A DNA stretch of 54,066 nucleotides from Comamonadaceae bacterium (GTDB lineage Bacteria; Pseudomonadota; Gammaproteobacteria; Burkholderiales; Rhodocyclaceae). Below the pieces are notes generated by a model. It saw only the letters and a program-made list of their open reading frames with translations. It ran no database searches and was not told the origin of the DNA. The stretch lies in NCBI GenBank assembly GCA_029255645.1, contig JANLJE010000032.1:1-54066 (forward strand). Direction: 5' to 3'. This document shows positions 142 through 50,470 of this stretch, piece after piece (position 1 is the stretch's first letter; every line of letters starts with the position of its first letter). Made by a program: the position numbers and the translations under genes.

Positions 142-2448
142 TTAGTCGCTCTGGTCCTCGATTCCGTACTTTTTCTCCATTTGGCGCATCATCAGGGCAT
201 AGCCGCCGACCAGCAGCACATAGATGATCAGACTCCCCTGAGCGGCCATGTAGAAGCCCAGGGGGAAGCCGAAGAGGACGATGGTATTGAGGCTGCCCGC
301 CAGGTAACTGGCAACATAGGTCGCCAGAAACCAGACCAGCAGCAGCGCCAGGGTGAGTTGGCAGTTACGCCGCCAGTAACGCTTGTTGCGTTGTTCAAGA
401 TCCGGGGTATGCACAGGGCCGGCCGGGTAGCGGACGCTTTCAACGAAATCCTGGATTGCCCTGGAGGGCGGCGAGGTCATCAGGCTGACCACCGGAATCA
501 CCAGCATGCCCACGCCTACGCCCCAGACGCCGGCAGCAATCGACCGGATACCAAACCAGGGTTCCATGCGCAGGCCGTGCAGGCCCAGCCCGCCGATGTT
601 GTATTCCACTTCGAGTCGGACGATGTAGAAAATGCACATCAGGACGCCGGCCAGCATGCCGGCAATGGCACCTTGCTGATTGGCCCGCTTCCAGAAGATG
701 CCCAGCACGAGCGCCGGGAAAAAGGCGGAAGCCGCCAGCGAAAAGGCCCAGGCAACCATGTAGAGGATGGTGCCGGGTTTCTGGGCGGCCACCAGCGCAG
801 CCAGTACCGCCACCACCAGGAGCAGGGACTTGGAAATGATCAGGCGCCACTGGGTGGAGGCATCGGGACGAATGATGCGGTAATAAACGTCATGGGAAAG
901 CGCACTGGCGATGGTCAGCAAGAGCCCATCGGCAGTCGACAGCGCCGCGGCCAGGCCACCCGCGGCGACGAGGCCGGAGATGACGTAGGGCATGCCGGCG
1001 ATTTCCGGTAACGCGAGCACGATTACATCGGGATTCAAGCTCAATTCAGCCAGTTGCAAACGACCGTCGCTGTTGATGTCCTCGCTGGACACCAGGCCGA
1101 CCCGGCTCCAGGCCGAAAACCAGGCAGGCAGCTTGTCCAGTTCAAGATCAATGAGGTGGGTATAAATCTCGAACTTGGCGAACACCGCATAGGCAGGGGC
1201 CGTCAGGTACAGCAGCATGATGAACAGCAGCGACCAGAACACCGATTCCCGCGCCTGAGCGACCGTGGGTGTGGTGTAGTACCGGGTCAGCACATGCGGC
1301 AAGGCGGCGGTGCCGATGGTGAGGCAGAACACCAGCGCGATGAAATCGATCCGTGCCTGATCGCGTTCCGCTTCGCTGTTGCCGGGATAGGCCTGGGCGT
1401 GCGGCTGGGGAGCTCTGGCTCTGGCTTCGGCTTGCGTCATTTCCGCCAGCCAGTATTCACGCGCCAGTTCCGGCGTGCTGGGCAATTCGCGCTGCTGACG
1501 TTCCAGGGCCACGATCTCCCGCGCCTGGGCGTCACGGTTTTTCAGTTCATTGATGCGCCGGGTGATGGCATCCCGCTCCTGCTGCAAGGAAGCGGGCAGA
1601 CGCTCGATCTTTTCCCGGAAGGCGGCGGCCCGGATACTGAAGAGTTCCCGGGCCTCGGCCTCGGCTGGCCGGGCGAACAATTCCTTTTCGACTTCCCCCA
1701 CCTCCGCCAGCACCTGGCCGTACATGATCTGGGGCAAGGGAACTCCGGTGTTCTGGTAGGAAAGAAGGGTCACGGGCACCAGATAGGCGACGATCAGGAT
1801 CATGTACTGGGCCACCTGGGTCCAGGTCACGGCCCGCATGCCGCCCAGAAAGGAACAGACGAGGATGCCCGCCAGGCCGACGAACACCCCCACCTCAAAC
1901 TGCAAGCCAACGAAACGGCTGGTGATCAGGCCCACCCCATAGATCTGGGCGACGACATACACGAAAGAACAGAGGATGGTCACCGCCACTCCCACCAGGC
2001 GGGCGCTATTGCCGCCATAGCGGGCACTCAGGAAATCGGGGATGGTGTATTGGCCAAAGCGGCGCAAGTAGGGGGCCAGCAGGACGGCCACCAGCACGAA
2101 GCCGCCGGTCCAGCCCAGCACATAGGCCAGCCCCTGATACCCTGCCAGAAAGAGGGTGCCGGCCAGACCGATGAAGGAGGCGGCGCTCATCCAGTCCGCC
2201 CCGGTGGCAATGCCGTTGAAGATCGCGGGCACCTGGCGCCCAGCCACGTAATACTCGGAGATATCGGCAGTGCGGCTCAGAACGCCGATGGCGGCATAGA
2301 GAAAGATGGTAAAGAACAAGAAGACATAGCCAATCCAGCGCGACGGCATGCCCTGTCGTTCAAGAAAATACAAGGCGCCGAGTTGCACCAGAAAGCCGGC
2401 GGTGTACACGCCGTAGTAACGCCGCAATTGCCGGGCGAGAGGACTCAC
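142..2448 (-). CDS. Sodium:solute symporter (VC_2705-like) with fused C-terminal DUF4212-like small subunit
   Basis: A 768-residue SSS-family transporter, probably taking up acetate or a related monocarboxylate with Na+ at the inner membrane; the substrate is inferred from the nearby acetyl-CoA synthetase gene. Family hallmarks include SEYYVAGRQVP (about 64-74), the GADWMSAASFIG helix (83-94) and PDFLSARYG. Two features are unusual. Residues ~250-362 are a long hydrophilic, charged, probably coiled-coil insertion between membrane segments. The last 78 residues (from YWRRNCQL, ~691) look like DUF4212, the small symporter subunit: WF in a first helix, then the GFPLGFYMAAQGSL motif and a second helix. 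That subunit is usually a separate gene. The start is GTG, directly after the stop of the upstream gene, with GGAG 8 nt upstream. Confidence 0.88.
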   Translation of the reverse strand: MSPLARQLRRYYGVYTAGFLVQLGALYFLERQGMPSRWIGYVFLFFTIFLYAAIGVLSRTADISEYYVAGRQVPAIFNGIATGADWMSAASFIGLAGTLFLAGYQGLAYVLGWTGGFVLVAVLLAPYLRRFGQYTIPDFLSARYGGNSARLVGVAVTILCSFVYVVAQIYGVGLITSRFVGLQFEVGVFVGLAGILVCSFLGGMRAVTWTQVAQYMILIVAYLVPVTLLSYQNTGVPLPQIMYGQVLAEVGEVEKELFARPAEAEARELFSIRAAAFREKIERLPASLQQERDAITRRINELKNRDAQAREIVALERQQRELPSTPELAREYWLAEMTQAEARARAPQPHAQAYPGNSEAERDQARIDFIALVFCLTIGTAALPHVLTRYYTTPTVAQARESVFWSLLFIMLLYLTAPAYAVFAKFEIYTHLIDLELDKLPAWFSAWSRVGLVSSEDINSDGRLQLAELSLNPDVIVLALPEIAGMPYVISGLVAAGGLAAALSTADGLLLTIASALSHDVYYRIIRPDASTQWRLIISKSLLLVVAVLAALVAAQKPGTILYMVAWAFSLAASAFFPALVLGIFWKRANQQGAIAGMLAGVLMCIFYIVRLEVEYNIGGLGLHGLRMEPWFGIRSIAAGVWGVGVGMLVIPVVSLMTSPPSRAIQDFVESVRYPAGPVHTPDLEQRNKRYWRRNCQLTLALLLVWFLATYVASYLAGSLNTIVLFGFPLGFYMAAQGSLIIYVLLVGGYALMMRQMEKKYGIEDQSD

Positions 2449-3084
2449 TCAAGATGCTCCATGCAGCCAGCGATGGGCCCGGGCCAGTTCCTGCAAGGCG
2501 GCGGGGGAATCCACCCCCCGGCGCCGCGCGGCGGCCAGCAGACGCTGCAGCAGCCGGGCCTGGAGCAGGGTTTCACCCATCACATCGCGCCGGTCGCCAT
2601 GATCGAGGGAAAAATAGTCGAGCCAGCCTTCCAGGCCATGACCCGGCTCGCCCGCCTCGCGGAACAGTTCTGGCAGCAACACCGCCAGGTCCAGCCAGCA
2701 AAAGCGGGGTTCGAGCCCCAGGTTCAACCGCAGGGCCGGCTCCAGAAAGGCGCGCACAAAGGGCAGCTGAAAGCTCGCCAGCGGCGCCTTGCCGACAAAT
2801 TCGAGCCAGGCCAGCCAGGCCTCCGGGTCATGGCTGCCGGGTTCGATCCAGAAGGCATCATCGGGATGGATACTGCCGTGACTGACTCCTACCGCGGCGA
2901 GCTGCTTGATCCGGTGCTGCTGCGGATCAAGCCCCTCGGTGTGGAGGTGCAGCACCCCATATCGAACCTGGTAATGCGCCTGCCCCAGGGAGGGCGCGGG
3001 CAGCTCCTGCCAGGCCCGCAGGCGGGTTTGCAGGGGTTCGGCCAGAACGACCGTCGTGGAGGGGGTAAAAAAACGCAAGGCCAT
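2449..3084 (-). CDS. DnaQ-like (DEDD exonuclease fold) protein lacking catalytic acids
   Basis: A 211-residue protein that aligns by eye with the 3'-5' exonuclease domain of DnaQ/RNase T. ExoI V-L-D-x-E-T-x-G-L-D-P is here VLHLHTEGLDP (44-54), so both metal-binding acids are replaced by His46 and His48. ExoII H-N-x-x-F-D is FQLPFV (105-110), so the Asp is lost too. Only ExoIII H-x4-D survives, as HGDRRD (162-167). It is therefore probably not a nuclease and may act by binding. It lies 3 nt after the cNMP/CBS gene and its stop abuts the symporter GTG, so it is clearly in that operon. Similar symporter/CBS/DnaQ neighbourhoods exist in other proteobacteria (recalled, not searched). Alternative: an exonuclease with a rearranged active site. 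Confidence 0.75.
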   Translation of the reverse strand: MALRFFTPSTTVVLAEPLQTRLRAWQELPAPSLGQAHYQVRYGVLHLHTEGLDPQQHRIKQLAAVGVSHGSIHPDDAFWIEPGSHDPEAWLAWLEFVGKAPLASFQLPFVRAFLEPALRLNLGLEPRFCWLDLAVLLPELFREAGEPGHGLEGWLDYFSLDHGDRRDVMGETLLQARLLQRLLAAARRRGVDSPAALQELARAHRWLHGAS

Positions 3085-3087
3085 GGT

Positions 3088-5034
3088 TCAGCCTGCCTGA
3101 AAATCGAGGCGCAGCTTTTGCTGCAGTTTCCGGGCCTGGCGAAATGCCTCCTTGAGAATGCGGCGATCAAGTTCGTTGAGGCGATCAGGGTAGATCAGGT
3201 TGTGTCCCTGCCCGCCTTCGACCCCATCGAGCTGCTGCTGACGCAGGCGCAATAGCTGGATGTAATTGAAGGCTTCGATGATGCCGTCGATCTCATCTGC
3301 ATTGAAGGCAAGGCGGGCGCCGGCATGGCGCAGCCGCAAGACGGTGTTGGTCTGATACACCCTGGCCGCCAGGGCATAAACACGGGCGCCATCGACAAAC
3401 AGGCGGGTGCCGTATTTCTTCAGGTCGATGGCGCCGGGATGACCGGCCTCCAGGTCCGTGACAAAATCGCGGATCTTGCCCAGCGGCGGCTGCACCGCCA
3501 GACCATTGACCGCCATGGAGCGCAGGAAAATGGGATTGTCCGCCGCATGATCGAGCAGCCTGTGGCGCAGCCGGTCCGCCAGATGGCTTTGCCCGTACAA
3601 GGGACGAAAGTCGAAGAAGATGGAGGCATTTAGCAATGCATCGGGTTGCGGACGGCGGATCCACTCCTCGAACAGTTCCTGCCACTCCTCCAGCGTCAGA
3701 CACCACTGCGGGTTGCTGGCCATGATGTTGCCTTTGCACAAGGAAAAGCCGCAGCGGTCCAGATCGGCATTCACGGCCCGGGCAAATTCCAGCAGGCGCA
3801 TCTTCAGCATTTCCTTGTCGCTAAAGTCATTGCAGACAAAGATGATGCCGTTATCCTGGTCGGTGCTGAAGGTCTGCTCGTTCCGGCCCTCGGAACCGAA
3901 GGCCAGCCAGCACCAGTCGATACCATACAAATCGTGATGTTCCAGATTCTGTTCAAGAATCCGATGCGTCAGGGCGTCGTTGAGCGTGGAGATGAACTGG
4001 GTCAGTTGCTCCGCTCCCACCCCCTGGGCCAGCAGGTTGAAAGCCAGTTGGCGAATATCCCGGGCGGCCTGCTGCAGGTTGCCGATATCCGGCGCCTGTT
4101 CGATAGCCTGACGAATCCGGGTCAGGCCGATGCGCTGCAACGCAAACAGATCCCGCTCGGACACCACTCCGCTCAAGCGCCCTTCTCCATCCACCACCAG
4201 CACATGGCGAATACCATGCGCGGCCATCGCCAGCATGGCATCGTAAGCACTGGCGTGTTCGGTCAGGCAATACGGCGAGCCGCTCATGACCTCGGCAATG
4301 GGCGTATCCAGTGCAACTTCGGCCAGCACCACCCGGTCGAGCAGATCCGCCCGGGTCAGAATACCCACCGGCTTTTGCGCCGCATCCACCACGGCCACGG
4401 AGCCGACATGCGCCCGGGACATGATTTCCAGCGCCTGACGCAGCGGGGTATCGCGGCTCACCTGGATCGGGTTACGGGAACCCACCTGGAACAGCGGTGA
4501 GCTCAAGCTCTGCTGGTCGCTCGCCTGCTGGGCAAACAGCAATTGCAACTGTTCGCGGGATTGATTCAGCAAGGTGGCAATGTACCGGGTGCAAAAGGCA
4601 TTGAATTCGGGGCTCATCTCCATCAGGGTGAGCACATCCGCCGCCGCCACGACGAAGCAGGCGACATCGCTGGCCGCCACATAGCGGTTGGTGGAGGGCC
4701 GCTGGGCGGTCACCGCCCCGATGGGAAAGCACTCCCCGACCCCCAGGGCCAGCACCGAGTGGCCGGTCACGGCCACATCGCCCACCTGCAAGGACTGCAC
4801 CTTGCCCTGTTCGATGATGTAGAAATGGCGAGCCACCCCGTCTCCGGGCCCGATGATTTCCGCCCCCTTGGGATAGAACACGGCGGCCGCCCGTTCGGCC
4901 AGATAATCCAGCGCCCGGGCTTCCATGCGCTGGAATGGCAGATGGCGTGTCAGGAAATCCCGGGTGATCCTGGCCACCCGTTGTTGTCCCTGAATGCCGG
5001 GCCCTGCCGGCGAGCCCTGCGGTTCCACGATCAA
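3088..5034 (-). CDS. cNMP-binding / CBS-pair / DUF294 nucleotidyltransferase-like signalling protein
   Basis: 648 residues, soluble. Order of domains: cyclic-nucleotide-binding fold (~35-150, with FYIIEQGKVQ and GECFPIGA), two CBS motifs (~185-310, ending in GVVSERDLF), then a DUF294 putative nucleotidyltransferase with GSEGRNEQTFSTDQDN (380-405, acidic pair in DQD) and the DUF294 C-terminal helical part. This architecture resembles GlnD-like uridylyltransferases joined to energy-sensing modules, and is often found beside acetate-type symporters. Likely role: sensing adenylate or cyclic nucleotide state and controlling the transporter; target unknown. The start is TTG, supported by AGGAG 7 nt upstream. 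A 93-nt spacer separates it from the preceding exonuclease-fusion gene. Confidence 0.85.
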   Translation of the reverse strand: MIVEPQGSPAGPGIQGQQRVARITRDFLTRHLPFQRMEARALDYLAERAAAVFYPKGAEIIGPGDGVARHFYIIEQGKVQSLQVGDVAVTGHSVLALGVGECFPIGAVTAQRPSTNRYVAASDVACFVVAAADVLTLMEMSPEFNAFCTRYIATLLNQSREQLQLLFAQQASDQQSLSSPLFQVGSRNPIQVSRDTPLRQALEIMSRAHVGSVAVVDAAQKPVGILTRADLLDRVVLAEVALDTPIAEVMSGSPYCLTEHASAYDAMLAMAAHGIRHVLVVDGEGRLSGVVSERDLFALQRIGLTRIRQAIEQAPDIGNLQQAARDIRQLAFNLLAQGVGAEQLTQFISTLNDALTHRILEQNLEHHDLYGIDWCWLAFGSEGRNEQTFSTDQDNGIIFVCNDFSDKEMLKMRLLEFARAVNADLDRCGFSLCKGNIMASNPQWCLTLEEWQELFEEWIRRPQPDALLNASIFFDFRPLYGQSHLADRLRHRLLDHAADNPIFLRSMAVNGLAVQPPLGKIRDFVTDLEAGHPGAIDLKKYGTRLFVDGARVYALAARVYQTNTVLRLRHAGARLAFNADEIDGIIEAFNYIQLLRLRQQQLDGVEGGQGHNLIYPDRLNELDRRILKEAFRQARKLQQKLRLDFQAG

Positions 5035-5127
5035 GATGATTCTCCTGGTGAATTAAAGCATTGCGGCTTCATTTTATGGGCTGGCGGAACCGGCAAGGCA
5101 GGCGCCCCCAGCCGCGCCGGCTCAGTA

Positions 5128-7299
5128 TCAGTACTTGACCCGGGCAAAGTAGGTTTTCTGCGACGCATCCAGGGCCTGGCGCAGGGTGTGGATACCTTTT
5201 TCAGCAAGTAGCGGCAACATCTTCAGGAAGATCTCGCCGGTAGCAATGGCATCCCCCAGCGCGTTGTGGCGCCCGACAATCTGGACGCCCAGACGTTCGG
5301 CAATCACATCGAGCCTGTGGGATTCCTGGTTGGGATGGATCACGGCGGAAAGCAGCAAGGTATCGAGTACCGGCTGATGAAAATGAATGCCCGTGCTGGC
5401 TTCCTTGATCTGCAGGAAACGCAGGTCGAAGGCGGCGTTGTGCGCCACCAGCACGGTGTCGGCACAAAAGGCCTGGAAGGCGGGCAGGACCGCGCCGATG
5501 ACGGGCTGGCCACGGATCATTTCTTCAGTGATGCCGTGGATGGGAATGCCTTCGGGCCGCAGCGGGCGCTGCGGGTCCACCAGCTGGTCGAAGGATTCCT
5601 GGCGCAGCAGACGGCCATTGACGATGCGCACCGCGCCGATCTGGATGATTTCGTCGCCGTTGGCCGGCTCCAGCCCGGTGGTCTCGGTATCGAAGACGGT
5701 ATAGGACATTTCCATCAGATTACGATCGAGATCCACCCCGGTGTCCTGGAATTTGAACAGATCAAAATCGTAATACTCGGGCCGCCCCTGGCCGGCATCA
5801 AGGGGGAGTGGCGCCCTTTCCTGCGCCGCCTGAACCACTGGCAGCACGAAGCGGAAATAGGCCCGGTGGGCGGCCCTCTCGCGCTGATACCAGACTTCTC
5901 CCCCGTGCCGATCCAGGACTTCGCGCAGGGACATCGGCGCAACCTCCTCACCCACCTGCAGGTTTTCCTGCTCCCAGGTGTAGAAGGTTTCAGAGGACAT
6001 GACCTGGCCGGACCAGAGCAGATCCAGGTAAGCGAGCCGGCCCTCGGAAAGCACCCGGAAGCGCAGTTCGCGGATTTGATAATGCTCGACCAGCCGCCCG
6101 GCCAGAAAAGTCATGGCAAAGGTCAGGGAAAAACTGTCGGCGCGGACCCAGAGGTTATCTTCCATCACCTCGATCTTGCTGGGCAGGTTGAAGCGCGCCT
6201 CGATGCGTCGCTGGGCGGCCTTGACCAGATCTTCGGTGGAAACTTCTTCCAGCGGCCAGCGTATCCGGATGGCGTCGGCAAACCGCTGGACCGTGCTTTC
6301 CAGCTGCCGGCTCATGCGCCCGACTTCCTCGGCGATCACCCGCACAAAACGCTCCCGCTCCGCTGGCTCCATGTCCGGATAGTCATGCAAGGTTTCCACG
6401 GCGGCCCGCACATTGCCCAGGGCGCCCCGGTTGCCTTCGGTCAGATCGACCAGGGCGTGGTTGCGGACGCGCTCTTGTTCCATGCTGCGGGTGATGTTTT
6501 CCACGGTGAGCACATAGCCGGACATGATGCGCGCCTCTCCCGTCTGATCGCCGGGCGCCAGGACCGGCACCATCTGCACCCGCAGGAACTGCCCACTGGC
6601 GGTGGTGGTGATGAAATTGGCAACATTGGCCGTCAGCCCCCGCGCCAGCCGCTGGCGGATGGCCTCTTCCGCGTGGGCGATGCGGCTTTTGTCGATGATC
6701 GAAAAAATGGACCGCCCCAGGCCGATCAGGGCACCGGAAGCGACAAAGGTGGGGCCCTGAGCCAGGGCATGGAATTCGAGCCGGGCGCGATTGTTGTAGA
6801 GCAGGATGCGCCCATCGAGATTACAGACCACCACCGCCTGGGCCAGTTCGGACATGAGCGCGGCGAGCCGGTTTTTCTCCTCCTCCACCGAGGCCTTGGC
6901 TCGGGCGATCTGCGCCTCGACATCGGCCATCAAGGCGTCGCGTTGCTGGGCCAGGTCGTTGATGGCGCGCGCCACCTGCCGGACTTCGGGCGGCCCCGTT
7001 TCGGTGGTGATGCGGAAATTGCGGTTGGCGCCCAACATCAGGCGCAAATGCTCGGCCATCTGCAGCAGGCCCTGCACATATTGACGGAAAAGGGTACGCA
7101 CCACGACCAGGCCCAGACCAAAGCCCATGGCGGTGAGCAGGGCCCCCAAGGGCAGATGCGGCACGATCAGCGCTTTGAGCAAAGCCCGCTGGCTGCCATC
7201 CATTTTCATCCATACCAGGGTGGAGGTCAGGAGAAAAGGCCCCGTCACCAGGGCTCCCAGCACCAGTACCGCCAGGGCAAAACGATAGCGGGCCTGCAT
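5128..7299 (-). CDS. Membrane pseudo-histidine-kinase fused to DnaQ-family 3'-5' exonuclease
   Basis: 723 residues. N-terminus: two membrane helices (~8-32 and ~48-70), a HAMP-like stretch, a coiled coil, and a PAS-like domain (~145-270). Then a kinase-like module in which the dimerisation motif reads DLTEGNRGALGNVR where active kinases have H-E-L-R-T-P-L, so the phospho-accepting His is missing. The following ATPase-like part lacks a recognisable N box and keeps only an HGGEVW-like end. C-terminus: a complete DEDD exonuclease with DTE (537-539), HNAAFD (620-625) and H-x4-D (678-683), so this half should be active. Substrate unknown; DNA, RNA or dinucleotides are all possible. Three nt after the receiver gene, hence co-translated. 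The combination suggests a nuclease controlled from the membrane. Confidence 0.82.
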   Translation of the reverse strand: MQARYRFALAVLVLGALVTGPFLLTSTLVWMKMDGSQRALLKALIVPHLPLGALLTAMGFGLGLVVVRTLFRQYVQGLLQMAEHLRLMLGANRNFRITTETGPPEVRQVARAINDLAQQRDALMADVEAQIARAKASVEEEKNRLAALMSELAQAVVVCNLDGRILLYNNRARLEFHALAQGPTFVASGALIGLGRSIFSIIDKSRIAHAEEAIRQRLARGLTANVANFITTTASGQFLRVQMVPVLAPGDQTGEARIMSGYVLTVENITRSMEQERVRNHALVDLTEGNRGALGNVRAAVETLHDYPDMEPAERERFVRVIAEEVGRMSRQLESTVQRFADAIRIRWPLEEVSTEDLVKAAQRRIEARFNLPSKIEVMEDNLWVRADSFSLTFAMTFLAGRLVEHYQIRELRFRVLSEGRLAYLDLLWSGQVMSSETFYTWEQENLQVGEEVAPMSLREVLDRHGGEVWYQRERAAHRAYFRFVLPVVQAAQERAPLPLDAGQGRPEYYDFDLFKFQDTGVDLDRNLMEMSYTVFDTETTGLEPANGDEIIQIGAVRIVNGRLLRQESFDQLVDPQRPLRPEGIPIHGITEEMIRGQPVIGAVLPAFQAFCADTVLVAHNAAFDLRFLQIKEASTGIHFHQPVLDTLLLSAVIHPNQESHRLDVIAERLGVQIVGRHNALGDAIATGEIFLKMLPLLAEKGIHTLRQALDASQKTYFARVKY

Positions 7300-7302
7300 G
7301 GC

Positions 7303-7674
7303 TCAGACGCCCTCGAGCAACTGCTTGATCTGACTGACCAGTTCCTTGTTGGAAAAAGGCTTGGTCACATAGGCATCGGCTCCCAGGCCCAGGCCCTTGG
7401 CAACTTCCGTATCCCGCCCCTTGGCCGTGAGCATGACGATTCTGGTGGCACTCCTGGCCGGGTCGGCACGCAACAGTTCACATACTTCGTAGCCAGACTT
7501 CTTCGGCATCATCACGTCCAGAAGGATCAGGTCGGGATGAAAGGCTTCGACCTGCTCCAGGGCCGCCTCGCCATCGGACGCGACCGCCACCTGAAACCCC
7601 TCGCGCTTCAAGAGGAATTCCAGGGACAGGACGATGTTGGGCTCATCATCCACAATCAGGATCTTGTGGGACAT
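7303..7674 (-). CDS. Single-domain response regulator (CheY-like receiver)
   Basis: 123 residues, a receiver domain only. All key residues are present: acidic pocket D9/D10, phosphoacceptor D53 in LLDVMMP, T83 in MLTAKG, and K105 in VTKPF. There is no output domain. It lies between the transporter-fused kinase (30 nt upstream) and the pseudo-kinase/exonuclease (3 nt downstream), so the natural reading is that the kinase phosphorylates it and it acts by protein contact, perhaps on the exonuclease protein. In the related CrbS/CrbR and MxtR/ErdR acetate-sensing pairs the regulator has a DNA-binding domain; here it does not. Confidence 0.93.
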   Translation of the reverse strand: MSHKILIVDDEPNIVLSLEFLLKREGFQVAVASDGEAALEQVEAFHPDLILLDVMMPKKSGYEVCELLRADPARSATRIVMLTAKGRDTEVAKGLGLGADAYVTKPFSNKELVSQIKQLLEGV

Positions 7675-7704
7675 GGGGTATCTCCTCCCGTTGTCATGTC
7701 GGGT

Positions 7705-10398
7705 TTATTCGATGCGCTGGCAAGGCAGTTCAAAGATGAATTCCGAGCCCTGACCGGGTTCGCTCTCCACCCACAGATGACCACCAAAGTATTCGACAAT
7801 CTGCCGGCTGATGGGTAGGCCCAGGCCAGTTCCCTTGGGCTTGTCGGTCAGGGCATTGCCGCCCTGACGGAAACGCTCAAAGATGAAATCCTTCTCTTCC
7901 GCCCCCATCCCCGGGCCATTATCGCGCACCGCAACCCGCACCCGGTCTGCCATGCAGGTCAAGTTCACTTCCACCCGCCCCTGGCCGGCGGGCGCGAATT
8001 TCACTGCATTCGAGAGCAGATTGATCATCACCTGGGTGAGCCGGTCCTGGTCCGCCATCACCAGAACCGGCGTCACGGGACAATTCAGTGCAAGGCCCAC
8101 GCCCTTGTCGCGGAAAAGTTGTTCCAGAGCCGCAGCGGCATCGCGCACCAAGCCGACCAGATCGACCTGGTGCGCGGTCCAGTCCGCCCGCCCCGACTCC
8201 AGCTTGGCCAGATCAAGAATCTGGTTGATCAAGCGGGTCAGACGCTCCGTCTCGGTCACGATGATACCGAGAAAACGCTGACGGTCCGACAACGCCATAT
8301 CCGGGTGATCCGCCAGCAATTCGGAAAAAGCCCGGATCGAGGTCAAGGGTGTGCGCAGTTCATGGGTCACGGTGGAGACGAAATCATCCTTGAGCCGATC
8401 CAGTTCGCGCAACTGCGCATTCACCGCCTGCAGTTCCTGGGTGGCGGCCTCCAATTCACGGGACTTCTTCTCCAGTTCCTGGCTATGGGCGCGTACTAGG
8501 GACGCCTCATCGAGAATATCGAGCACTTCGTCCAGACCCAGTTCCTCCTCCTCCACTACCGAGGCCAGCACGACCCGGGCACTGGCAGAACCGATGGCCC
8601 CCGCCAGCAGGCCTTCGGCAAAGCGGGCCAGTTCTGCATCCACTTCGCGGCTTTCCAGGTTGGTCAGCCCCCGTTTGCGGGCATAGGAGCGCAATTGCTG
8701 GCGCGCCCGCTCCGCGCCCAGGAAACGCTCGAGCAAGCCGGCCAAGGCCGGGTAGGAGGCCTTGCCTCGCCACAGCAACGGGTTGGCCTCGATGTCACGA
8801 CGACGCAGGATATCGACAAACCGATTGGCCTGACCGGCTTCCACCGCATCGGGCCGGATGCTGAGGGACAGCAACACATACAAGCCGGTATTCAGGAACA
8901 GGCTCCAGAACAGGCAATGAGAAATCTCGTCCAGGCCCTCCAGACCAAACAGGGCATGTGCCTTGAGCCCGTTGATGCCCCACAGGCCCTGGCTGACAAA
9001 ATCACCGGGAATCCAGCCGGACTTGGCGAAGGACGGCAGCAGCAGGGTGTAGCCCCAGACCAAAAAGCCGGCGAACAGCCCGGCCAGGGCACCGGCCCCA
9101 TTGCCTTGCTTCCAGTACATGCCGCCAAACAGGGCGGGAGCGAACTGGGCCACGGCCGAGAACGAGATCAGGCCGATCCCGACCAGGGCATGAGCCTCCC
9201 CGGCGGCACGGAAATAGCCGTAACCCAGGAGCAAGATGAGGGCGATGGCCACCCGGCGAATGTAAAGCAGCAGGCGGGAGAGGTCCGGACGCCGTTCCAG
9301 CCGCAGCCTCCCGGAGCGCAGCAGGGCGGGCATGACCAGATCGTTGCAGACCATGGTAGAGAGGGCGATGGTCTCGACGATGACCATGCCGGTGGTGGCC
9401 GAAAGACCTCCGAGGAAAGCCAGCAAGGCCAGGGTTTCCTGGCCCTGGGAGAGGGGCAGGCTGAGGACAAAGGTATCGCCGTTACCAGGCATCCCCAGCA
9501 GCAACCCCGCCAGCGCAATCGGCAGCACAAATACATTGATCAGGAGCAGGTACAAGGGAAAGAGCCAGACCGCACGGCGCAGATGACTTTCATCGACATT
9601 TTCCACGACCATGATCTGGAACTGGCGCGGCAACAACACAATCGCCAGCGCCGAGAGCAACACCAGGGGCATCCAGTTACCCAGACTGAGATCCAGACTG
9701 AGCCGCCGGCTCAGTTCGGGAAGCGCTTCCGCCTGCTGAAAAATATCCGTAAACCCGTCGAACAAGCCATAGGTGACAAACACCCCAACGGCCAGGAAAG
9801 CCAGCAGTTTGACAATGGATTCGAAGGCGATGGCCGCCACCATGCCTTCGTGCCGTTCCGTGGCATCCAGATGCCGGGTGCCGAACAGGATGGAAAACAC
9901 CGCCAGCGCAATCGCAATCAACGCGGTGGCATCGAGCCCCAGCAAGGCAACCGTCCCTTTACCCGGGAAAAGCACATCGAGGCTGGCGGCAACCGCTTTT
10001 AATTGCAGGGCGATATAGGGCACGATGCCAATCACCGCAATCACCGTCACCAGCCCCGCCAGGGATTGCCGCTTGCCATAACGGGCCGCCATGAAATCGG
10101 CAATGGAAATCAGGCGCTCCTGTTTGCTGATGCGGATCATCTTCAGGATGACGGGGGCCAGCATCAACATCAGCGTAGGGCCCAGGTAAATGGTGAGAAA
10201 CCCCATGCCGCCCGATGCAGCCCGCCCGACACTGCCAAAAAAGGTCCACGAGGTGCAGTAAACCGCCAGGGAAAGGCCATGGACATTGGCCGAAATGATG
10301 GAGCGCCCCTGATCCGCGCGCCGATCACCAAAGCGGGCAATGGCAAACAGCAACGCCAGATAAGCCACGGCCAGGAAGGAAACACCCCAGGGATTCAT
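7705..10398 (-). CDS. Sodium:solute symporter-type sensor histidine kinase (CrbS/CbrA-like)
   Basis: 897 residues. The first ~480 form an SLC5/SSS-type membrane domain with about 12-13 helices (early motif SANVHGLSLAVYCTSWTFFG). A cytosolic STAC-like segment (~540-610) and a coiled coil follow. The kinase core has the H box VTHELRTPLTSIRAF (His near 665), N box NLLSNAVKF, G1 DNGPGMG, F box IFERFRQG, and G2 GTGLGLPIS, so it is a complete kinase without a built-in receiver. Proteins of this type (CrbS, MxtR, CbrA) sense or carry small organic acids or amino acids. The neighbouring acs suggests acetate as the signal, which is inference. The partner receiver is the next gene. Confidence 0.92.
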   Translation of the reverse strand: MNPWGVSFLAVAYLALLFAIARFGDRRADQGRSIISANVHGLSLAVYCTSWTFFGSVGRAASGGMGFLTIYLGPTLMLMLAPVILKMIRISKQERLISIADFMAARYGKRQSLAGLVTVIAVIGIVPYIALQLKAVAASLDVLFPGKGTVALLGLDATALIAIALAVFSILFGTRHLDATERHEGMVAAIAFESIVKLLAFLAVGVFVTYGLFDGFTDIFQQAEALPELSRRLSLDLSLGNWMPLVLLSALAIVLLPRQFQIMVVENVDESHLRRAVWLFPLYLLLINVFVLPIALAGLLLGMPGNGDTFVLSLPLSQGQETLALLAFLGGLSATTGMVIVETIALSTMVCNDLVMPALLRSGRLRLERRPDLSRLLLYIRRVAIALILLLGYGYFRAAGEAHALVGIGLISFSAVAQFAPALFGGMYWKQGNGAGALAGLFAGFLVWGYTLLLPSFAKSGWIPGDFVSQGLWGINGLKAHALFGLEGLDEISHCLFWSLFLNTGLYVLLSLSIRPDAVEAGQANRFVDILRRRDIEANPLLWRGKASYPALAGLLERFLGAERARQQLRSYARKRGLTNLESREVDAELARFAEGLLAGAIGSASARVVLASVVEEEELGLDEVLDILDEASLVRAHSQELEKKSRELEAATQELQAVNAQLRELDRLKDDFVSTVTHELRTPLTSIRAFSELLADHPDMALSDRQRFLGIIVTETERLTRLINQILDLAKLESGRADWTAHQVDLVGLVRDAAAALEQLFRDKGVGLALNCPVTPVLVMADQDRLTQVMINLLSNAVKFAPAGQGRVEVNLTCMADRVRVAVRDNGPGMGAEEKDFIFERFRQGGNALTDKPKGTGLGLPISRQIVEYFGGHLWVESEPGQGSEFIFELPCQRIE

Positions 10399-10404
10399 GC
10401 GTGC

Positions 10405-10593
10405 TTATGCCTTGTGCGCCTCTATAATCCAGGCCGCCAGAGCAATCAGCACGGCCCAGACCCCGAACAGGTAGAGGTAGGCGGCCAGACCCGAACCCCC
10501 CGCCTGAGTATTGAGCAAGGGGGGATTGAGCAACACCAACCCCAGCAGCGCCAGGGCCACCAGGCGTTGACGCCTCATATCAAAACGCTGCAT
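10405..10593 (-). CDS. Small membrane protein, 62 aa, two predicted helices
   Basis: Starts at ATG 10593 with a clear GGAGGG six nt upstream. The protein begins MQRFDMRRQRL, then a hydrophobic helix (ALALLGLVLLN), a short loop with QAGGSG, and a second helix (YLYLFGVWAVLIALAAWII) ending EAHKA. It sits 6 nt before the sensor kinase gene, and its ATG overlaps the stop of the 41-codon frame upstream. I do not recognise the family. The position suggests an accessory subunit for the symporter-type kinase, by analogy with small SSS subunits. Confidence 0.8.
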   Translation of the reverse strand: MQRFDMRRQRLVALALLGLVLLNPPLLNTQAGGSGLAAYLYLFGVWAVLIALAAWIIEAHKA

Positions 10594-10718
10594 CAGACAC
10601 CCTCCAGAAAAAGCCAGACGAAAACGGCCGACGCGTAAACAAACGCGCCGGCCGCCTCGGGCGCCACGCTTGCCGTGGCTGCCAGTTTGGGACACCCGCA
10701 CAACAGATAGGCGCCCAT
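10593..10718 (-). CDS. Very small membrane protein candidate, 41 aa
   Basis: A short minus-strand frame from ATG 10718. AGGAG lies 6 nt upstream, and its TGA overlaps the next ATG as TGATG, a typical translational coupling. The peptide begins MGAYLLCGCPKLAA and ends in a single hydrophobic helix (AGAFVYASAVFVWLFLEGV). Two nearby cysteines (C7, C9) could form a metal or redox site. The upstream ACACTATAAGG may be a -10 region. It could be a leader peptide controlling the 62-aa protein and the kinase, or a small subunit. No family recognised. Confidence 0.5.
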   Translation of the reverse strand: MGAYLLCGCPKLAATASVAPEAAGAFVYASAVFVWLFLEGV

Positions 10719-10892: not shown

Positions 10893-12854
10893 TCACCCCT
10901 TCAACTGCTCCAGGATGGCCGGGTTTTCCAGAGTGGAAGTGTCTTGCGTGACTTCCTCGCCCTTGGCCAGGGAACGCAGCAGACGGCGCATGATCTTGCC
11001 GGAACGGGTCTTGGGCAGGTTCTCGCCGAAGCGGATGTCCTTGGGCTTGGCGATGGGGCCAATTTCCTTGCCGACCCAGTCCTGCAGTTCCTTGATCACC
11101 TTCCTGGCCTCGTCCCCGGTGGGACGGGAACCCTTCAGGACGACGAAGGCGACGATGGCCTCCCCGGTCAGGTCATCCGGACGCCCCACCACGGCGGCTT
11201 CGGCCACGAGTTCGTGGGCCACCAGGGCGGATTCGATTTCCATGGTGCCCATGCGGTGGCCGGAGACGTTCAGCACATCGTCGATCCGGCCGGTGATGGT
11301 GAAGTAGCCGGTATTGGCATCACGGATGGCGCCGTCGCCGGCGAGGTAGAGACGACCGCCCAGGTCTTCAGGGTAGTAGGACTTCTTGAAGCGCTCGGGA
11401 TCGCCCCAGATGGTGCGGATCATCGAAGGCCAGGGTTTCTTCACCACCAGGATGCCGCCCTGCCCCCAGGGTAGCTCGGCACCGGTCTCGTCCACCACGG
11501 CGACCTGGATGCCGGGGAACGGCAGGGTGCAGGAGCCGGGAACCAGGGGGGTGGCGCCGGGCATGGGGGTGATCATGTGCCCCCCGGTCTCGGTCTGCCA
11601 GAAGGTATCGACAATGGGGCAACGGCCGCCACCGATGTGCTCGTAGTACCACTCCCAGGCGGCGGGGTTGATGGGTTCGCCCACGGAGCCGAGCAGACGC
11701 AGGCTCGAAAGGTCGTAGTTTTTCGGATGCACGGCGGGGTTGTTATCGGCAGCCTTGATCAGGGAACGGATCGCGGTGGGGGCGGTGTAGAAGATGGTGG
11801 CCTTGTGGTCCTGGATCATCTTCCAGAAACGGCCGGCGTCGGGATAGGTGGGCACGCCTTCGAACACGATCTCGGTCGCGCCGCTGGCCAGGGGACCATA
11901 GGTGATGTAGGTGTGGCCGGTGACCCAGCCGATGTCGGCGGTACACCAGAAGACATCGGTCGGCTTGATGTCGAAGGTGTACTTCATGGTCAGGATGGCA
12001 TGCACCAGGTAGCCGCCGGAAGAATGCTGCACGCCCTTGGGCTTGCCGGTGGAGCCGGAAGTGTAAAGCAGGAACAGCGGATGCTCGGCCTCGACCCACT
12101 CGGGTTCGCAGGTTTCGGGTTGGTTGGCGAGCCCCTCGTGCAGCCATTCGTCCCGCCCTGCGACCATGTTCACTTCGGCGCCGGTGCGCTTGAAGACGAT
12201 CACATTCCTGGCAGATTCGCAGCCGCCCATGGCAAAGGCCTCATCGGCGATGGGCTTCAAGGGAATGGCCTTGCCGCCGCGGAACTGGCCGTCGGAAGTG
12301 ATCAGCATCACAGCGCCGGCATCCTGGATGCGGTCGCGCAGGGACAGGGCGGAGAAGCCACCGAACACCACGGAATGGATGGCGCCGATGCGGGCACAGG
12401 CCTGCATGGCGACGATGCCTTCGATGGTCATGGGCATGTAAATGACGACGCGGTCGCCCTTCCTGACGCCCTTGGACTTGAGCAGATTGGCCATCTTGCA
12501 GACCCGGACCAGCAGTTCCTGGTAGGTAACCCTGGTGACCTGACCGTCGTCGGCCTCGAAAATGATGGCAGTCTTGTCGCCGAGACCGGCTTCGACGTTG
12601 CGATCCAGGCAGTTGTAGGAGACGTTCAGCTTGCCATCGGTGAACCACTTGTAGAAAGGAGCGTCGGATTCATCCAGCACCTTGGTAAAAGGGGTCTGCC
12701 AACTCACCAGTTCCCGGGCATGACGCGCCCAGTAAGCTTCGTAATCCTGTTCGGCTTCCGCGCACAGCGCCTTATAGGCATCCATTCCGGAAACCGCTGC
12801 GTTCTTTACAAAATCCGGGGATGGGTAATAGAACTGCACGGATTCATTTGACAT
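10893..12854 (-). CDS. acs: Acetyl-CoA synthetase (AMP-forming)
   Basis: 653 residues, the usual Acs length. It activates acetate with ATP and CoA to acetyl-CoA via acetyl-AMP. Seen: the P-loop-like adenylation motif [11 protein letters not shown], the [10 protein letters not shown] region, [10 protein letters not shown], and the C-terminal [11 protein letters not shown] with the catalytic lysine that is commonly acetylated in this family. The chosen start, [11 protein letters not shown], has GGAGAAGG just upstream; an in-frame start 23 codons earlier has no such site. Upstream it carries two near-identical direct repeats 40 bp apart, likely regulator sites. Downstream on the same strand lies the transporter-kinase locus, so acetate activation and sensing are linked. 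Confidence 0.97.
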
Positions 12855-12904
12855 AAACCTTCTCCTCTGCGATCGGGGTATCGAGTGACATTCTGGGTGG
12901 GCGG

Positions 12905-12958
12905 TACAAACCGTTACTGGCACCGCATTAGACGCGGATAATCTTACAAACCGCTTAC
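12905..12958 (-). promoter_or_regulatory. Paired direct repeats upstream of acs
   Basis: TACAAACCGTTAC (12905-12917) and TACAAACCGCTTAC (12945-12958) are direct repeats whose starts are 40 bp apart, close to four helical turns, and they end about 50 bp before the acs start codon. The arrangement fits two dimers or protomers of an activator on the same DNA face. The regulator is not identifiable from the window. Confidence 0.5.
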
Positions 12959-20058: not shown

Positions 20059-21570
20059 ATGTCCCACAGCAATCGCATCCACAACGCCCACCTGCGCAGC
20101 AAGATCATGTCGGCGGAAGAAGCCGCCACGCTGATCCCCTCCGGCGTCAATGTCGGCATGAGCGGCTTCACCGGCGCCGGCTATCCCAAGGTAGTACCTG
20201 CCGCCCTGGCCAAGCGCATCATGGATGCCAACCTGCACGGCAAGAAGTTCAAGATCGGGGTGTGGACCGGCGCCTCCACCGCCCCGGAACTGGACGGGGC
20301 CCTGGCCATGGTCGATGGCGTCGAGATGCGCCTGCCCTATCAGTCCGACCCCACCTGCCGCAAACGCATCAATGCCGGCGAGATGGAATACATCGACATC
20401 CACCTCTCTCATGTGGCCCAGTTCGTCTGGTTCGGTTTCCTCGGCAAACTCGACATGGCCGTGGTGGAAGTGGCCGGCATCACCGAGGATGGGCGCCTGA
20501 TCCCTTCCTCCTCGGTCGGCAATAACAAGACCTGGCTGGACCGGGCCGAAAAAGTGATCCTGGAAGTCAATACCTGGCAGAACCCGGCCCTGGAAGGCAT
20601 GCACGACATCTACTATGGCACCCAGCTCCCCCCCTTTCGCCAGCCCATCCCCCTGATCAAGACCAGCGACCGGATCGGTGAGCCCTACCTGAAGGTGAAC
20701 CCGGACAAGGTCATTGCCGTGGTGGAAACCCACCAGGCCGACCGCAACTCGGCCTTTGCCGCACCTGACGAAGGTTCCCGCAAGATCGCGGGCCACATTC
20801 TGGAATTCCTTGAGCACGAAGTGAAGGTGGGCCGCCTGCCCCGGGAACTGCTGCCCCTGCAATCCGGCGTCGGCAACATTGCCAACGCCGTGCTGGCCGA
20901 TCTCAACCAGGGCGCCTTCGAGAACCTGACGGCCTACACCGAAGTGCTGCAGGACGGCATGCTCGACATGATCAAATCCGGCAAACTCACCTGCGCCTCG
21001 GCCACTGCCTTCTCCCTCTCCCCCGGCGCCCTCACCGAACTGAACGCGGACCTGGAACGCTACAAAGACAGCATCATCCTGCGCCCCCAGGAAATCTCGA
21101 ACCACCCGGAAATCATCCGCCGCCTGGGCGTGATTGCCATGAACGGCATCATCGAAGCCGACATCTACGGCAACATCAACTCCACCCATGTGATGGGCAC
21201 CCGGATCATGAACGGCATCGGCGGTTCCGGCGACTTTGCCCGCAACGCCTACCTCTGCATCTTCATGACCCCTTCCCAGGCCAAGGGCGGCGCCATTTCC
21301 AGCATCGTGCCCATGGCCTCCCATGTAGACCACACCGAGCACGACGTGCAGGTACTGGTCACCGAACAGGGCCTCGCCGACCTGCGCGGCCTGTCACCCA
21401 AGCAACGCGCCAAGGTGATCATCGAGAACTGCGCCCACCCCCACTTCAAGCCGGCCCTGATGGATTACTACAAGCGCGCCCTCGACCACTCCCCCGGCAA
21501 GCAGACGCCGCACCTGCTCGAAGAAGCCCTGTCCTGGCACCTGCGCTACCTCAGGGAGGGCCAGATGTAA
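20059..21570 (+). CDS. Acetyl-CoA hydrolase/transferase family, succinate CoA-transferase type
   Basis: 503 residues, matching the YgfH/AarC/ScpC-type class I CoA-transferases that move CoA between succinyl- or acetyl-CoA and acetate, propionate or succinate. Seen: the N-terminal GMSGFTGAGYPK glycine-rich loop, the mid-domain SDRIGEPYLKVNPDKVIAVV, the AMNGIIEADIYGNINSTHVMG region, and GGSGDFARNAYLCIF with VTEQGLADLRGLSP, standard for the family. Together with Acs and fumarase this suggests strong acetate/short-chain acid metabolism. The start ATG follows AGGA with 10 nt spacing. Confidence 0.92.
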   Translation: MSHSNRIHNAHLRSKIMSAEEAATLIPSGVNVGMSGFTGAGYPKVVPAALAKRIMDANLHGKKFKIGVWTGASTAPELDGALAMVDGVEMRLPYQSDPTCRKRINAGEMEYIDIHLSHVAQFVWFGFLGKLDMAVVEVAGITEDGRLIPSSSVGNNKTWLDRAEKVILEVNTWQNPALEGMHDIYYGTQLPPFRQPIPLIKTSDRIGEPYLKVNPDKVIAVVETHQADRNSAFAAPDEGSRKIAGHILEFLEHEVKVGRLPRELLPLQSGVGNIANAVLADLNQGAFENLTAYTEVLQDGMLDMIKSGKLTCASATAFSLSPGALTELNADLERYKDSIILRPQEISNHPEIIRRLGVIAMNGIIEADIYGNINSTHVMGTRIMNGIGGSGDFARNAYLCIFMTPSQAKGGAISSIVPMASHVDHTEHDVQVLVTEQGLADLRGLSPKQRAKVIIENCAHPHFKPALMDYYKRALDHSPGKQTPHLLEEALSWHLRYLREGQM

Positions 21571-30717: not shown

Positions 30718-31425
30718 ATGAACGATTCCCACGCCCACGCACTGCGAACCCCCGCCCCCCGTCAGCAGGGCCTGGCCCTGATGATGGCCCTGATCGCCCT
30801 GGTTGCCATGACCCTGGCCGGCATCGCCCTGGTACGCTCGATTGACACCAACGCGCTGATTGCCGGCAACCTGGCCTTTCGCCAAAGCGCCACCCTGAGC
30901 GCCGAACAAGGCATCGAAGCCGCCATCAAGACCCTCTCCAGCCTCAGTGCCAGCGCGCGGGAACAGGACCAGGCAGGCAAAGGCTACTTTTCCACCATGC
31001 AGGATGCCGGCCTCGTCGACGGCAAAGGGATCGACTACACCGGCAACCGCACCGCCCCCACCAATGACAACATCCAGTGGAAAGACCAGGCCGGAACCGC
31101 CCAGGATGGCGCCGTCACCCCTTTTTGCCAGGCCGATCCGGACGCAGCCGGCAACCGCATCTGCTACATCATCCATCGGCAGTGCAAGAATCCTGGCTCA
31201 CCCACGGTCGACAACACTCAATGTATTTTCGAATCCGTATGCAAGGGAGGGAATCGGGACAGCAAGTCAGGTGAAAAAGTTTCCACCACCTATAACTACC
31301 TGAGCAACAAAGAAGGAACCGAAGTATGCGCAAAGCGGCTGCTGTTTTACAAAATCACTGTCCGCGCCGCCTCCCCCCGTGGCAACAGCAGTTATGTCCA
31401 GGCCTTCGTGAAGGAGGCCGAATAA
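30718..31425 (+). CDS. pilX: Minor pilin PilX
   Basis: 235 residues. Leader to Gly18, then LALMMALIALVAMTLAGIAL. Position +5 is Met23 instead of Glu, as in PilX/GspK-type tip pilins. SAEQGIEAAIKTL follows, then a soluble domain with several cysteine pairs. The stop overlaps a possible pilY1 ATG (TAATG). Confidence 0.9.
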   Translation: MNDSHAHALRTPAPRQQGLALMMALIALVAMTLAGIALVRSIDTNALIAGNLAFRQSATLSAEQGIEAAIKTLSSLSASAREQDQAGKGYFSTMQDAGLVDGKGIDYTGNRTAPTNDNIQWKDQAGTAQDGAVTPFCQADPDAAGNRICYIIHRQCKNPGSPTVDNTQCIFESVCKGGNRDSKSGEKVSTTYNYLSNKEGTEVCAKRLLFYKITVRAASPRGNSSYVQAFVKEAE

Positions 31426-31478
31426 TGCCCGCCCACCCGATCACCCAATCCCCTGCAACACTTCCGAAGGAGCATGAG

Positions 31479-45183: not shown

Positions 45184-45236
45184 CGGTACAAATGGGGCTG
45201 AACGGTACAAATGGGGCTAAGATAAGCCCCCATTTA
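45184..45236 (+). repeat. 19-bp duplication followed by an inverted repeat
   Basis: CGGTACAAATGGGGCTGAA and CGGTACAAATGGGGCTAAG are adjacent. The second copy's AAATGGGGCT is then mirrored by AGCCCCCATTT after AAGATA, forming a hairpin just before the diguanylate cyclase. Confidence 0.85.
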
Positions 45237-45260
45237 CACTCTGACACCCGGGATACTCAA

Positions 45261-50148: not shown

Positions 50149-50470
50149 CGGTCTCCGCAACAAGTAGGCAGGAAGCCAGCTCGACAGCACCGGCAAGAAG
50201 AGGTCGGGGCAGCAGGCCCCGTCCCCATCTTACGCCCTGTCCGAGCAAAAGCGGGTGATATGTTGGCCTGACATGTTGGCCTGACTGCCGGAGCAGATCG
50301 CCCCCTACACCCGGGCCGGCAGGTTGTCCGGGCGCGTTTCGCCTTCATCATCCCGGGCGAGGCTAACGGCCGGCCCCATGATTTCCTGGTGATCCGGCCT
50401 GGGCGTGGCCCCAGGGACAAAGCCCCCCGCTAGACCGTATAGTTGTGGTTTTACCTGGAAGGATGCGCCC
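50149..50470. other. Intergenic stretch between the transglutaminase-like gene and ppk2
   Basis: Holds a 13-bp duplication (50260-50285) and a weak TATAGT (50438-50443) that may be the ppk2 -10. No gene seen. Confidence 0.6.
50260..50285 (+). repeat. 13-bp tandem duplication
   Basis: ATGTTGGCCTGAC twice without mismatch. Confidence 0.93.

Follow-up and report, generated by a model that had tools for sequence, protein, structure and literature searches.

A conserved DUF294 nucleotidyltransferase–exonuclease pair and a possible sensory relay in an acetate-linked gene cluster of a Comamonadaceae bacterium

We analyzed a 54,066-nucleotide stretch of DNA from a Comamonadaceae bacterium (assembly GCA_029255645.1, contig JANLJE010000032.1, positions 1 to 54,066; hereafter the window). 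It starts at a contig edge, and its first 13 kb are filled by minus-strand genes running from acs to a sodium:solute symporter, as read from open reading frames (ORFs), Pfam and NCBIfam. Between the two lie a symporter-fused sensor kinase, a stand-alone receiver, exoFus (our name for a membrane pseudo-kinase with a DEDDh exonuclease attached to it), a DUF294 nucleotidyltransferase and a DnaQ-fold protein without its catalytic acids. An earlier note, made from the sequence alone, had described this leftward cluster with the same genes, and its content holds. We find that the most constant neighbor of the exonuclease across bacteria is the DUF294 nucleotidyltransferase, and this pair is the better-supported core of the locus. 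Our preferred reading, to which we give a probability of about 0.4, is that the locus is an acetate or monocarboxylate control operon built on the conserved pair, with a relay that steers a nucleotidylation writer and its eraser. The gene cluster is real and not a product of chance, because its order is conserved across relatives.

The DUF294–exonuclease pair across bacteria

The window's DUF294 protein (3088..5034, minus strand; its TTG start is uncertain) carries, by Pfam, a cyclic nucleotide monophosphate (cNMP)–binding domain, two CBS domains, the nucleotidyltransferase domain PF03445 with its GSxGR..DQD site, and DUF294_C (PF10335). The motif GSEGR...TDQDN is intact in all 57 sequences compared, the window's own and those of 56 relatives. 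We collected further DUF294 genes in samples drawn at the level of order, class and phylum. Strong order-sample places (E < 1e-30) numbered 86 including the window, and all 85 others were read (67 + 18); in the class sample (E ≤ 3.3e-25) we read 45 of 47, leaving out the window and one other, and in the phylum sample (E ≤ 2.5e-18) 42 of 60. The nucleotidyltransferase motif was intact in 149 of the 154 sampled DUF294 genes, with one variant and four genes lacking it. At E ≤ 0.001, a DUF294_C match was found in 42 of 115 class-sample genomes, 40 of them over the curated cut-off. The order sample also contained weak DUF294 matches in frames of ~860 to 1000 codons, which may be GlnD and GlnE.

A same-strand DnaQ-type ORF lies within 400 nucleotides of DUF294 in 109 of the 154 genes (140 loci), that is, in 50/67, 28/45 and 31/42 genes of the order, class and phylum samples; these counts come from broad profiles and ignore kinship, although the listed class-sample genomes each have a different family code. 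For 22 more DUF294 genes, the DnaQ-type ORF is elsewhere in the locus. Conversely, 109 of the 122 DnaQ-type ORFs in the 140 loci adjoin DUF294, and several of the remaining 13 are exoFus genes separated from it merely by the receiver. Among 18 further order-sample loci, seen as stretches of 5 to 6 kb that show direct neighbors only, 17 pair DUF294 with an exonuclease. For comparison, four RNase_T genes are present in the 2.9 Mb of the genome to which the window belongs. Two loci (L214 and L252) have natural fusions in the order exonuclease-CBS-CBS-DUF294-DUF294_C with both sites intact; the domains of L214 were confirmed by Pfam, and the exonuclease residues of L252 were read by eye.

The pair is also found on plasmids. 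We examined seven named regions among 69 matching plasmid records, and six have an exonuclease by DUF294. It is annotated in Cytobacillus (Bacillota) and Vibrio, and in Rhizobium with one gene between; the Paracoccus region reads acs, DUF485, actP, DUF294, a hypothetical gene, a receiver and the exonuclease, so that two genes intervene, one of them a receiver. The Cupriavidus exonuclease was found by profile, and that of Pseudomonas aeruginosa is short and intact by eye. A literature search, which was incomplete and is weak evidence, did not find this pairing across Proteobacteria and Bacillota, exonuclease–DUF294 fusions, a receiver/pseudo-kinase–exonuclease arrangement, or an exonuclease as eraser of nucleotidylation. 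Already known are CrbS/R, the Pseudomonas DUF294/RNase_T pair as acetate-regulon targets, and CbrX-CbrA.

Most partner exonucleases keep all five catalytic residues. Among 78 partners of the order and class samples, the nine fused to a pseudo-kinase and the one fused directly all have the residues DEDHD, while the 68 stand-alone partners divide into 47 with DEDHD, 20 with DEEHD and one dead (L122, of the window's family). All but one of the 20 DEEHD partners are outside the window's order; examples are the class-sample loci L175 to L179 and L181 to L188, and the Vibrio protein shows DEEHD too, by eye. This uniform Asp-to-Glu change at the exoII acid may alter metal binding.

The window's own solo partner (2449..3084, minus strand) occupies the place that the partner exonuclease has in other bacteria. 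Pfam gives it no match at E ≤ 1, and its NCBIfam matches to DEDD exonucleases are weak (best E 0.0005). A Foldseek search of the PDB with its AlphaFold model (mean predicted local distance difference test, pLDDT, 88.4) nevertheless finds the exonuclease domains of DnaQ and PolC. The protein has HHVRE in place of DEDHD, which bears out the earlier description of a DnaQ-like protein without its acids. In its family, the Glu, second Asp and His are missing in 45/45 sequences (29 of which are in the alignment presented), whereas the first Asp is kept in 42/45 and the last Asp in 1/45. We considered a recent pseudogene and rejected it: the same three residues are lost in all 45 sequences while other columns are invariant (18 in the 29 aligned). 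Nor is a dead DnaQ-fold protein a general feature of such loci, with the single dead case among 68 stand-alone partners. It appears to be a copy, decayed in this lineage, of an enzyme that looks active elsewhere. The earlier note had suggested it as the exonuclease's binding partner, a role for which we found no support.

Variation is also seen on the nucleotidyltransferase side. An extra short DUF294 gene stands between exoFus and the full-length one in four of five loci read, and a gap of ~1.1 kb matching it is common among the 80 exoFus loci described below. Many relatives carry the extra gene, and those operons therefore hold two nucleotidyltransferases. It is absent from the window, L006, L075 and, by spacing, L084. 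In L217 (Rhizobium; 6439-6963) and L219 (Skermanella; 6410-6991), a small hypothetical protein with a hydrophobic N-terminus directly follows DUF294; it had no match to the profiles used for these loci.

A membrane exonuclease beside a lone receiver

Pfam, alignment and a structure model together give exoFus (5128..7299, minus strand) two N-terminal hydrophobic helices, a coiled coil, a PAS-like part, a HisKA/HATPase-like part (residues 272–491; 5827..6486) and a DEDDh exonuclease domain (residues 533–700; 5200..5703; PF00929, E 1.1e-33). The middle aligned with the HisKA and HATPase domains of the kinase from the same operons in one hhalign comparison (probability 91.4%, E 8.9e-7) and resembles histidine-kinase folds by Foldseek. 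We aligned the window's protein with 80 relatives (36 of these 81 sequences are in the alignment presented). The phospho-His position is Glu, Asp or Gln in 81/81, and in the window His has become Glu, the N-box Asn has become Arg and the G1 Asp has become Trp. The five exonuclease residues (D537, E539, D625, H678 and D683) are kept in 81/81. Both halves of the protein are thus as the earlier note had described them, a pseudo-kinase and an intact exonuclease.

The exonuclease domain is 37 to 38% identical to the PolC exonuclease domain 2p1j (Foldseek), which also suits a different explanation, targeted RNA decay, an idea similar to that of the earlier note. Here, the relay would turn on a membrane exoribonuclease acting against carbon-metabolism mRNAs or small RNAs, with DUF294 as a separate regulator. 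DEDDh exonucleases are mostly nucleases, and the authors of a Pseudomonas putida study suggested mRNA decay for the exonuclease pp_0353 (PMC9927547; here and below, papers are cited from the portions available to us). However, RNA decay leaves unexplained why a nucleotidyltransferase is the usual neighbor and is twice fused, and Pfam found no RNA-binding domain in the window's proteins or in the four relatives scanned. We consider it unlikely.

Upstream of exoFus, the sensor kinase (7705..10398, minus strand; 897 residues, with HisKA and HATPase domains) is an SLC5/SSF-fused histidine kinase similar to CrbS and CbrA. Residues 9–458 match the CbrA SLC5-STAC structure 10ED (phmmer, E 1.1e-75); the match ends before the STAC region, where there is no Pfam match. 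Its motifs are intact, with H679 and N797 present in 56 of 57 aligned rows and one row gapped. Pfam finds no Response_reg domain in it, hence it is not a hybrid kinase. The adjacent stand-alone receiver (7303..7674, minus strand; PF00072, E 3.4e-31) has 123 residues and no output domain; its phospho-Asp D53 and its K105 are each present in 60/60 aligned sequences, with the accessory residues intact. Pfam finds only this receiver at the locus, with no LuxR-family DNA-binding regulator as partner. The genome has one LuxR-type (GerE) regulator above the Pfam cut-off, and because it adjoins, by eye, another, symporter-free kinase, the lone receiver is the likelier kinase partner, which leaves an unlinked CrbR some residual probability.

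The arrangement recurs in relatives. Scanning one genome per species, we kept the best 80 of 489 stretches with exoFus relatives, mostly from Dechloromonas, Azonexus, Accumulibacter and other Rhodocyclales; several are cut by contig ends. The receiver and DUF294 are each present in 59 of these loci and the dead DnaQ-fold protein in 44, in the window's order. The raw kinase tally of 76 includes short weak matches inside exoFus, and 56 pass 300 bits; the tallies of 51 for acs and 44 for the symporter each include a few weak matches. The order, class and phylum samples together contain 20 exoFus genes; 18 of them have the receiver next to them (≤300 nucleotides, same strand), and 13 have a symporter-kinase in the locus. 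Kinase, receiver, exoFus and DUF294 are kept together in all 11 Accumulibacter genomes searched, with the kinase in two pieces in two of them. The earlier note had named co-conservation as the check on its idea, and these counts bear it out.

Receiver placement also bears on the plainest alternative, an ordinary CrbS/R-type operon of co-transcribed acetate-regulon targets that do not act on one another, with the receiver serving another regulator. In Pseudomonas, CrbR (ErdR) does target the DUF294 gene, which shares its operon with the exonuclease gene and lies close to glcB or actP (PMC5715377, PMC9927547). Against this, the window's receiver lacks a DNA-binding part and lies between kinase and exoFus; Accumulibacter and Cupriavidus share the kinase-receiver-exoFus order. 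Outside the class, phylum-sample loci (L240 to L250) are arranged as DUF294-receiver-exoFus-kinase, again with the receiver beside exoFus. The sole over-cut-off LuxR-type regulator, moreover, has by eye its own neighboring kinase. We consider an ordinary operon quite unlikely. A search of the window for the P. fluorescens CrbR-type binding motif gave no signal: 2 matches were found where 1.62 are expected, and neither lies upstream of acs.

Given the gene order, the intact residues and the adjacent kinase-like fold, and with no LuxR-type regulator that would be a plausible alternative partner, we infer that the receiver probably acts on exoFus and serves as its switch. The earlier idea of a carbon-source signal passing to a membrane nuclease is plausible and partly supported, through the co-conservation; its inference gave no part to DUF294, the most constant neighbor of the exonuclease.

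A possible nucleotidylation switch

In the mechanism that we propose, the symporter-kinase would sense its substrate and, judging by gene order and intact residues, phosphorylate the lone receiver. The receiver would dock on the kinase-like hairpin of exoFus, itself without phosphorylation residues, and once docked would switch the membrane-held DEDDh active site. DUF294, tuned by its cNMP and CBS domains, would attach a nucleoside monophosphate (NMP) to a target, most likely a protein modified on a hydroxyl side chain, as its family membership suggests by comparison with GlnD and GlnE. Where a nucleotide has a free 3′-OH, DEDDh exonucleases cleave its 5′ phosphodiester; exoFus would accordingly be able to hydrolyse the NMP off the target, releasing 5′-NMP. 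The most likely target would be the symporter or its small subunit, with the modified form off. In the window's lineage, the second exonuclease copy, beside the full-length DUF294 gene, has lost its acids and is probably kept as a binding or scaffold subunit.

A nucleotidylation writer with a hydrolytic eraser is proposed because DUF294 belongs to the GlnD/GlnE group; DUF294_C shares a clan with the C-terminal domains of these enzymes (PMC3710099), and the Pseudomonas DUF294 protein has already been predicted to regulate proteins by nucleotidylation (PMC5715377). The available portions of these two papers mention no eraser. Among possible substrates of the exonuclease, we favor a protein-bound nucleotidyl group, and such chemistry by DUF294 and the exonuclease has, in our analysis, somewhat less than an even chance. 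The complete switch, in which DUF294 writes NMP on a transporter or metabolic protein, the exonuclease erases it and the transporter-kinase steers the eraser through a pseudo-kinase–docked receiver, is more tentative and taken as a whole doubtful. It is likewise unlikely that the symporter in particular is the target, and it cannot be the universal one, because many loci show no symporter. Tyrosines of DUF4212 were considered as possible modification sites; two are conserved in 63/66 sequences, which is nothing decisive.

Published genetics in P. putida fit the proposal. Deletion of pp_0353 (the exonuclease) and of actP-I both slowed growth on pyruvate, whereas deletion of pp_0354 (DUF294) did not impair it (PMC9927547). 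This is the pattern expected if the transporter is stuck off without the eraser and is not without the writer, although it could be coincidence.

Two further explanations share the same gene pair. In RNA tailing and trimming, the 3′ end of an RNA, such as a tRNA or a small RNA, would be extended by DUF294 and trimmed back by its DEDDh partner. The nucleotidyltransferase and exonuclease families both include members acting on RNA 3′ ends, and the pair and its fusions suit an add/remove cycle. Its weak points are that DUF294_C clusters with the GlnD/GlnE C-terminal domains, as far as the cited portion of PMC3710099 goes, and that the pair is associated with transporters and sensory domains; we regard it as improbable. 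In the other explanation, DUF294 makes a small oligonucleotide signal that an Orn-like exonuclease destroys. The structural neighbors of the dead DnaQ-fold protein include oligoribonuclease, NrnC and the Cap18 exonuclease, and cNMP and CBS domains sense nucleotides. Yet no effector or receptor was recognised in the loci, most of which were scanned with our own profiles only, and DUF294 is GlnD/GlnE-like and is not known as a messenger synthase. We regard such a messenger as slightly less probable still.

Several observations weigh against the control operon with a writer and an eraser. The gene pair would also be compatible with the adding of nucleotides to RNA ends, and our literature search found neither a proven function for DUF294 proteins nor an enzymatic activity for any member of the pair or operon. 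At 20 mM acetate, deletions of pp_0353, pp_0354 and actP-I had no defect (PMC9927547), and the null result for pp_0354 on pyruvate also fits redundancy or irrelevance. Deleting PFLU5625, the DUF294 gene of P. fluorescens, gave no phenotype (PMC5715377), and P. aeruginosa without PA3234 (actP) grew normally on propionate (PMC9765439). No DnaQ-type ORF is in view for 23 of the 154 DUF294 genes, some of them near contig ends, and none is annotated within 5 kb in the Skermanella plasmid region. The symporter has no match in 50 of the 140 loci, and the 90 positives may include kinase symporter domains; none is annotated within 5 kb in the Cytobacillus and Vibrio regions. The exoII acid is Glu in 20 of the 68 stand-alone partners. 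Confidence in the exoFus model is no more than moderate (pLDDT 69.3; predicted template modeling score 0.40), and two of the 20 sampled exoFus genes have no adjacent receiver. Finally, exoFus stands without receiver, kinase or DUF294 beside it in 20 of the 80 loci, 18 titled Accumulibacter (e.g., L034, L045 and L069) and two titled Pseudomonadota, some on short stretches. We rejected the lone Accumulibacter genes as a case against co-conservation: in all 11 genomes searched of these 20 they proved to be second copies, with the full set elsewhere.

Relation to known systems and the wider window

The closest known counterpart is the Pseudomonas pair. As in the window, a cNMP/CBS/DUF294 gene (PP_0354 of P. 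putida) comes before an RNase_T-type gene (PP_0353); the two share an operon that is linked to the acetate regulon (PMC9927547). The window's order of DUF294 (3088-5034), DnaQ-type gene (2449-3084) and symporter matches this layout. That symporter (142..2448, minus strand) belongs to the VC_2705 family, with a DUF4212 small-subunit domain fused at its C-terminus (PF00474, E 6.7e-59; PF13937, E 7.4e-26; TIGR03648, 773.5 bits). We take PA3233 and PA3232 to be the P. aeruginosa DUF294 and exonuclease genes; that pair adjoins actP, much as the window's pair is near an acetate-type symporter. The Pseudomonas exonuclease is short, and by eye intact in the P. aeruginosa plasmid copy, with no pseudo-kinase exonuclease or lone receiver annotated. 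The window, by contrast, has a dead solo partner and an additional membrane exonuclease with an intact site.

With CrbS/CrbR (MxtR/ErdR), the window shares a symporter-fused histidine kinase linked to acs and to acetate use. The window's acs gene, for acetate-CoA ligase, is at 10893..12923 (minus strand; TIGR02188, 967 bits), with a true start that is probably internal. CrbS, according to the sources available, carries its own receiver domain, as hybrid kinases do, and works with a LuxR-family regulator; the window's kinase has no receiver domain, and its neighbor is an output-less receiver next to a nuclease gene. A hydrophobic ORF of 62 amino acids (10405..10593, minus strand), matched in 49 of the 80 loci, lies directly before the kinase, as does the small peptide gene of CbrX-CbrA. 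It is CbrX-like by position and size only: we rejected it as a CbrX homolog, which had no sequence support (best PDB match E 0.69, not significant), and CbrA, in the portions seen, pairs with the sigma-54 regulator CbrB. Before it, a 41-codon ORF (10593..10718, minus strand) follows an AGGAGG, and its stop overlaps the next start by one base; it is possibly a leader peptide. Several relatives have short ORFs resembling one another in its place. The earlier note had put the whole locus at 2449-10718: the genes are as given, but the symporter lies outside that range, and its end, 10718, is the ATG of the 41-codon ORF.

Like GlnD and GlnE, the window's DUF294 protein combines a GlnD/E-like nucleotidyltransferase with a C-terminal domain of the same clan. 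GlnD and GlnE contain their own removing activity (an HD domain and a second transferase, respectively), whereas the eraser proposed here would be a separate DEDDh exonuclease. exoFus in turn shares its fold and all five catalytic residues with the PolC/DnaQ exonuclease, oligoribonuclease and RNase T, and is set apart from these by the membrane pseudo-kinase in the same chain and by its pairing with DUF294.

Elsewhere in the window, an acetyl-CoA hydrolase/transferase family gene lies ~7 kb from acs (20059-21570, plus strand); the P. putida acetate:succinate CoA-transferase ScpC, a CrbR/ErdR target, presumably belongs to the same family. Other plus-strand genes encode a PilY1-like protein (31326-34982), a GGDEF protein (45192-46445) and a polyphosphate kinase 2 (50405-51622).

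If true, the proposed switch would be a new class of de-AMPylase. To our knowledge, its two-component output would be neither transcription nor any known enzyme output. DUF294 proteins occur in many Proteobacteria, and their usual exonuclease partner, the two fusions and the fitting mutant pattern turn a vague annotation into a simply testable idea. It would imply that the use of organic acids is widely controlled after translation, and would give the DnaQ fold a new role.

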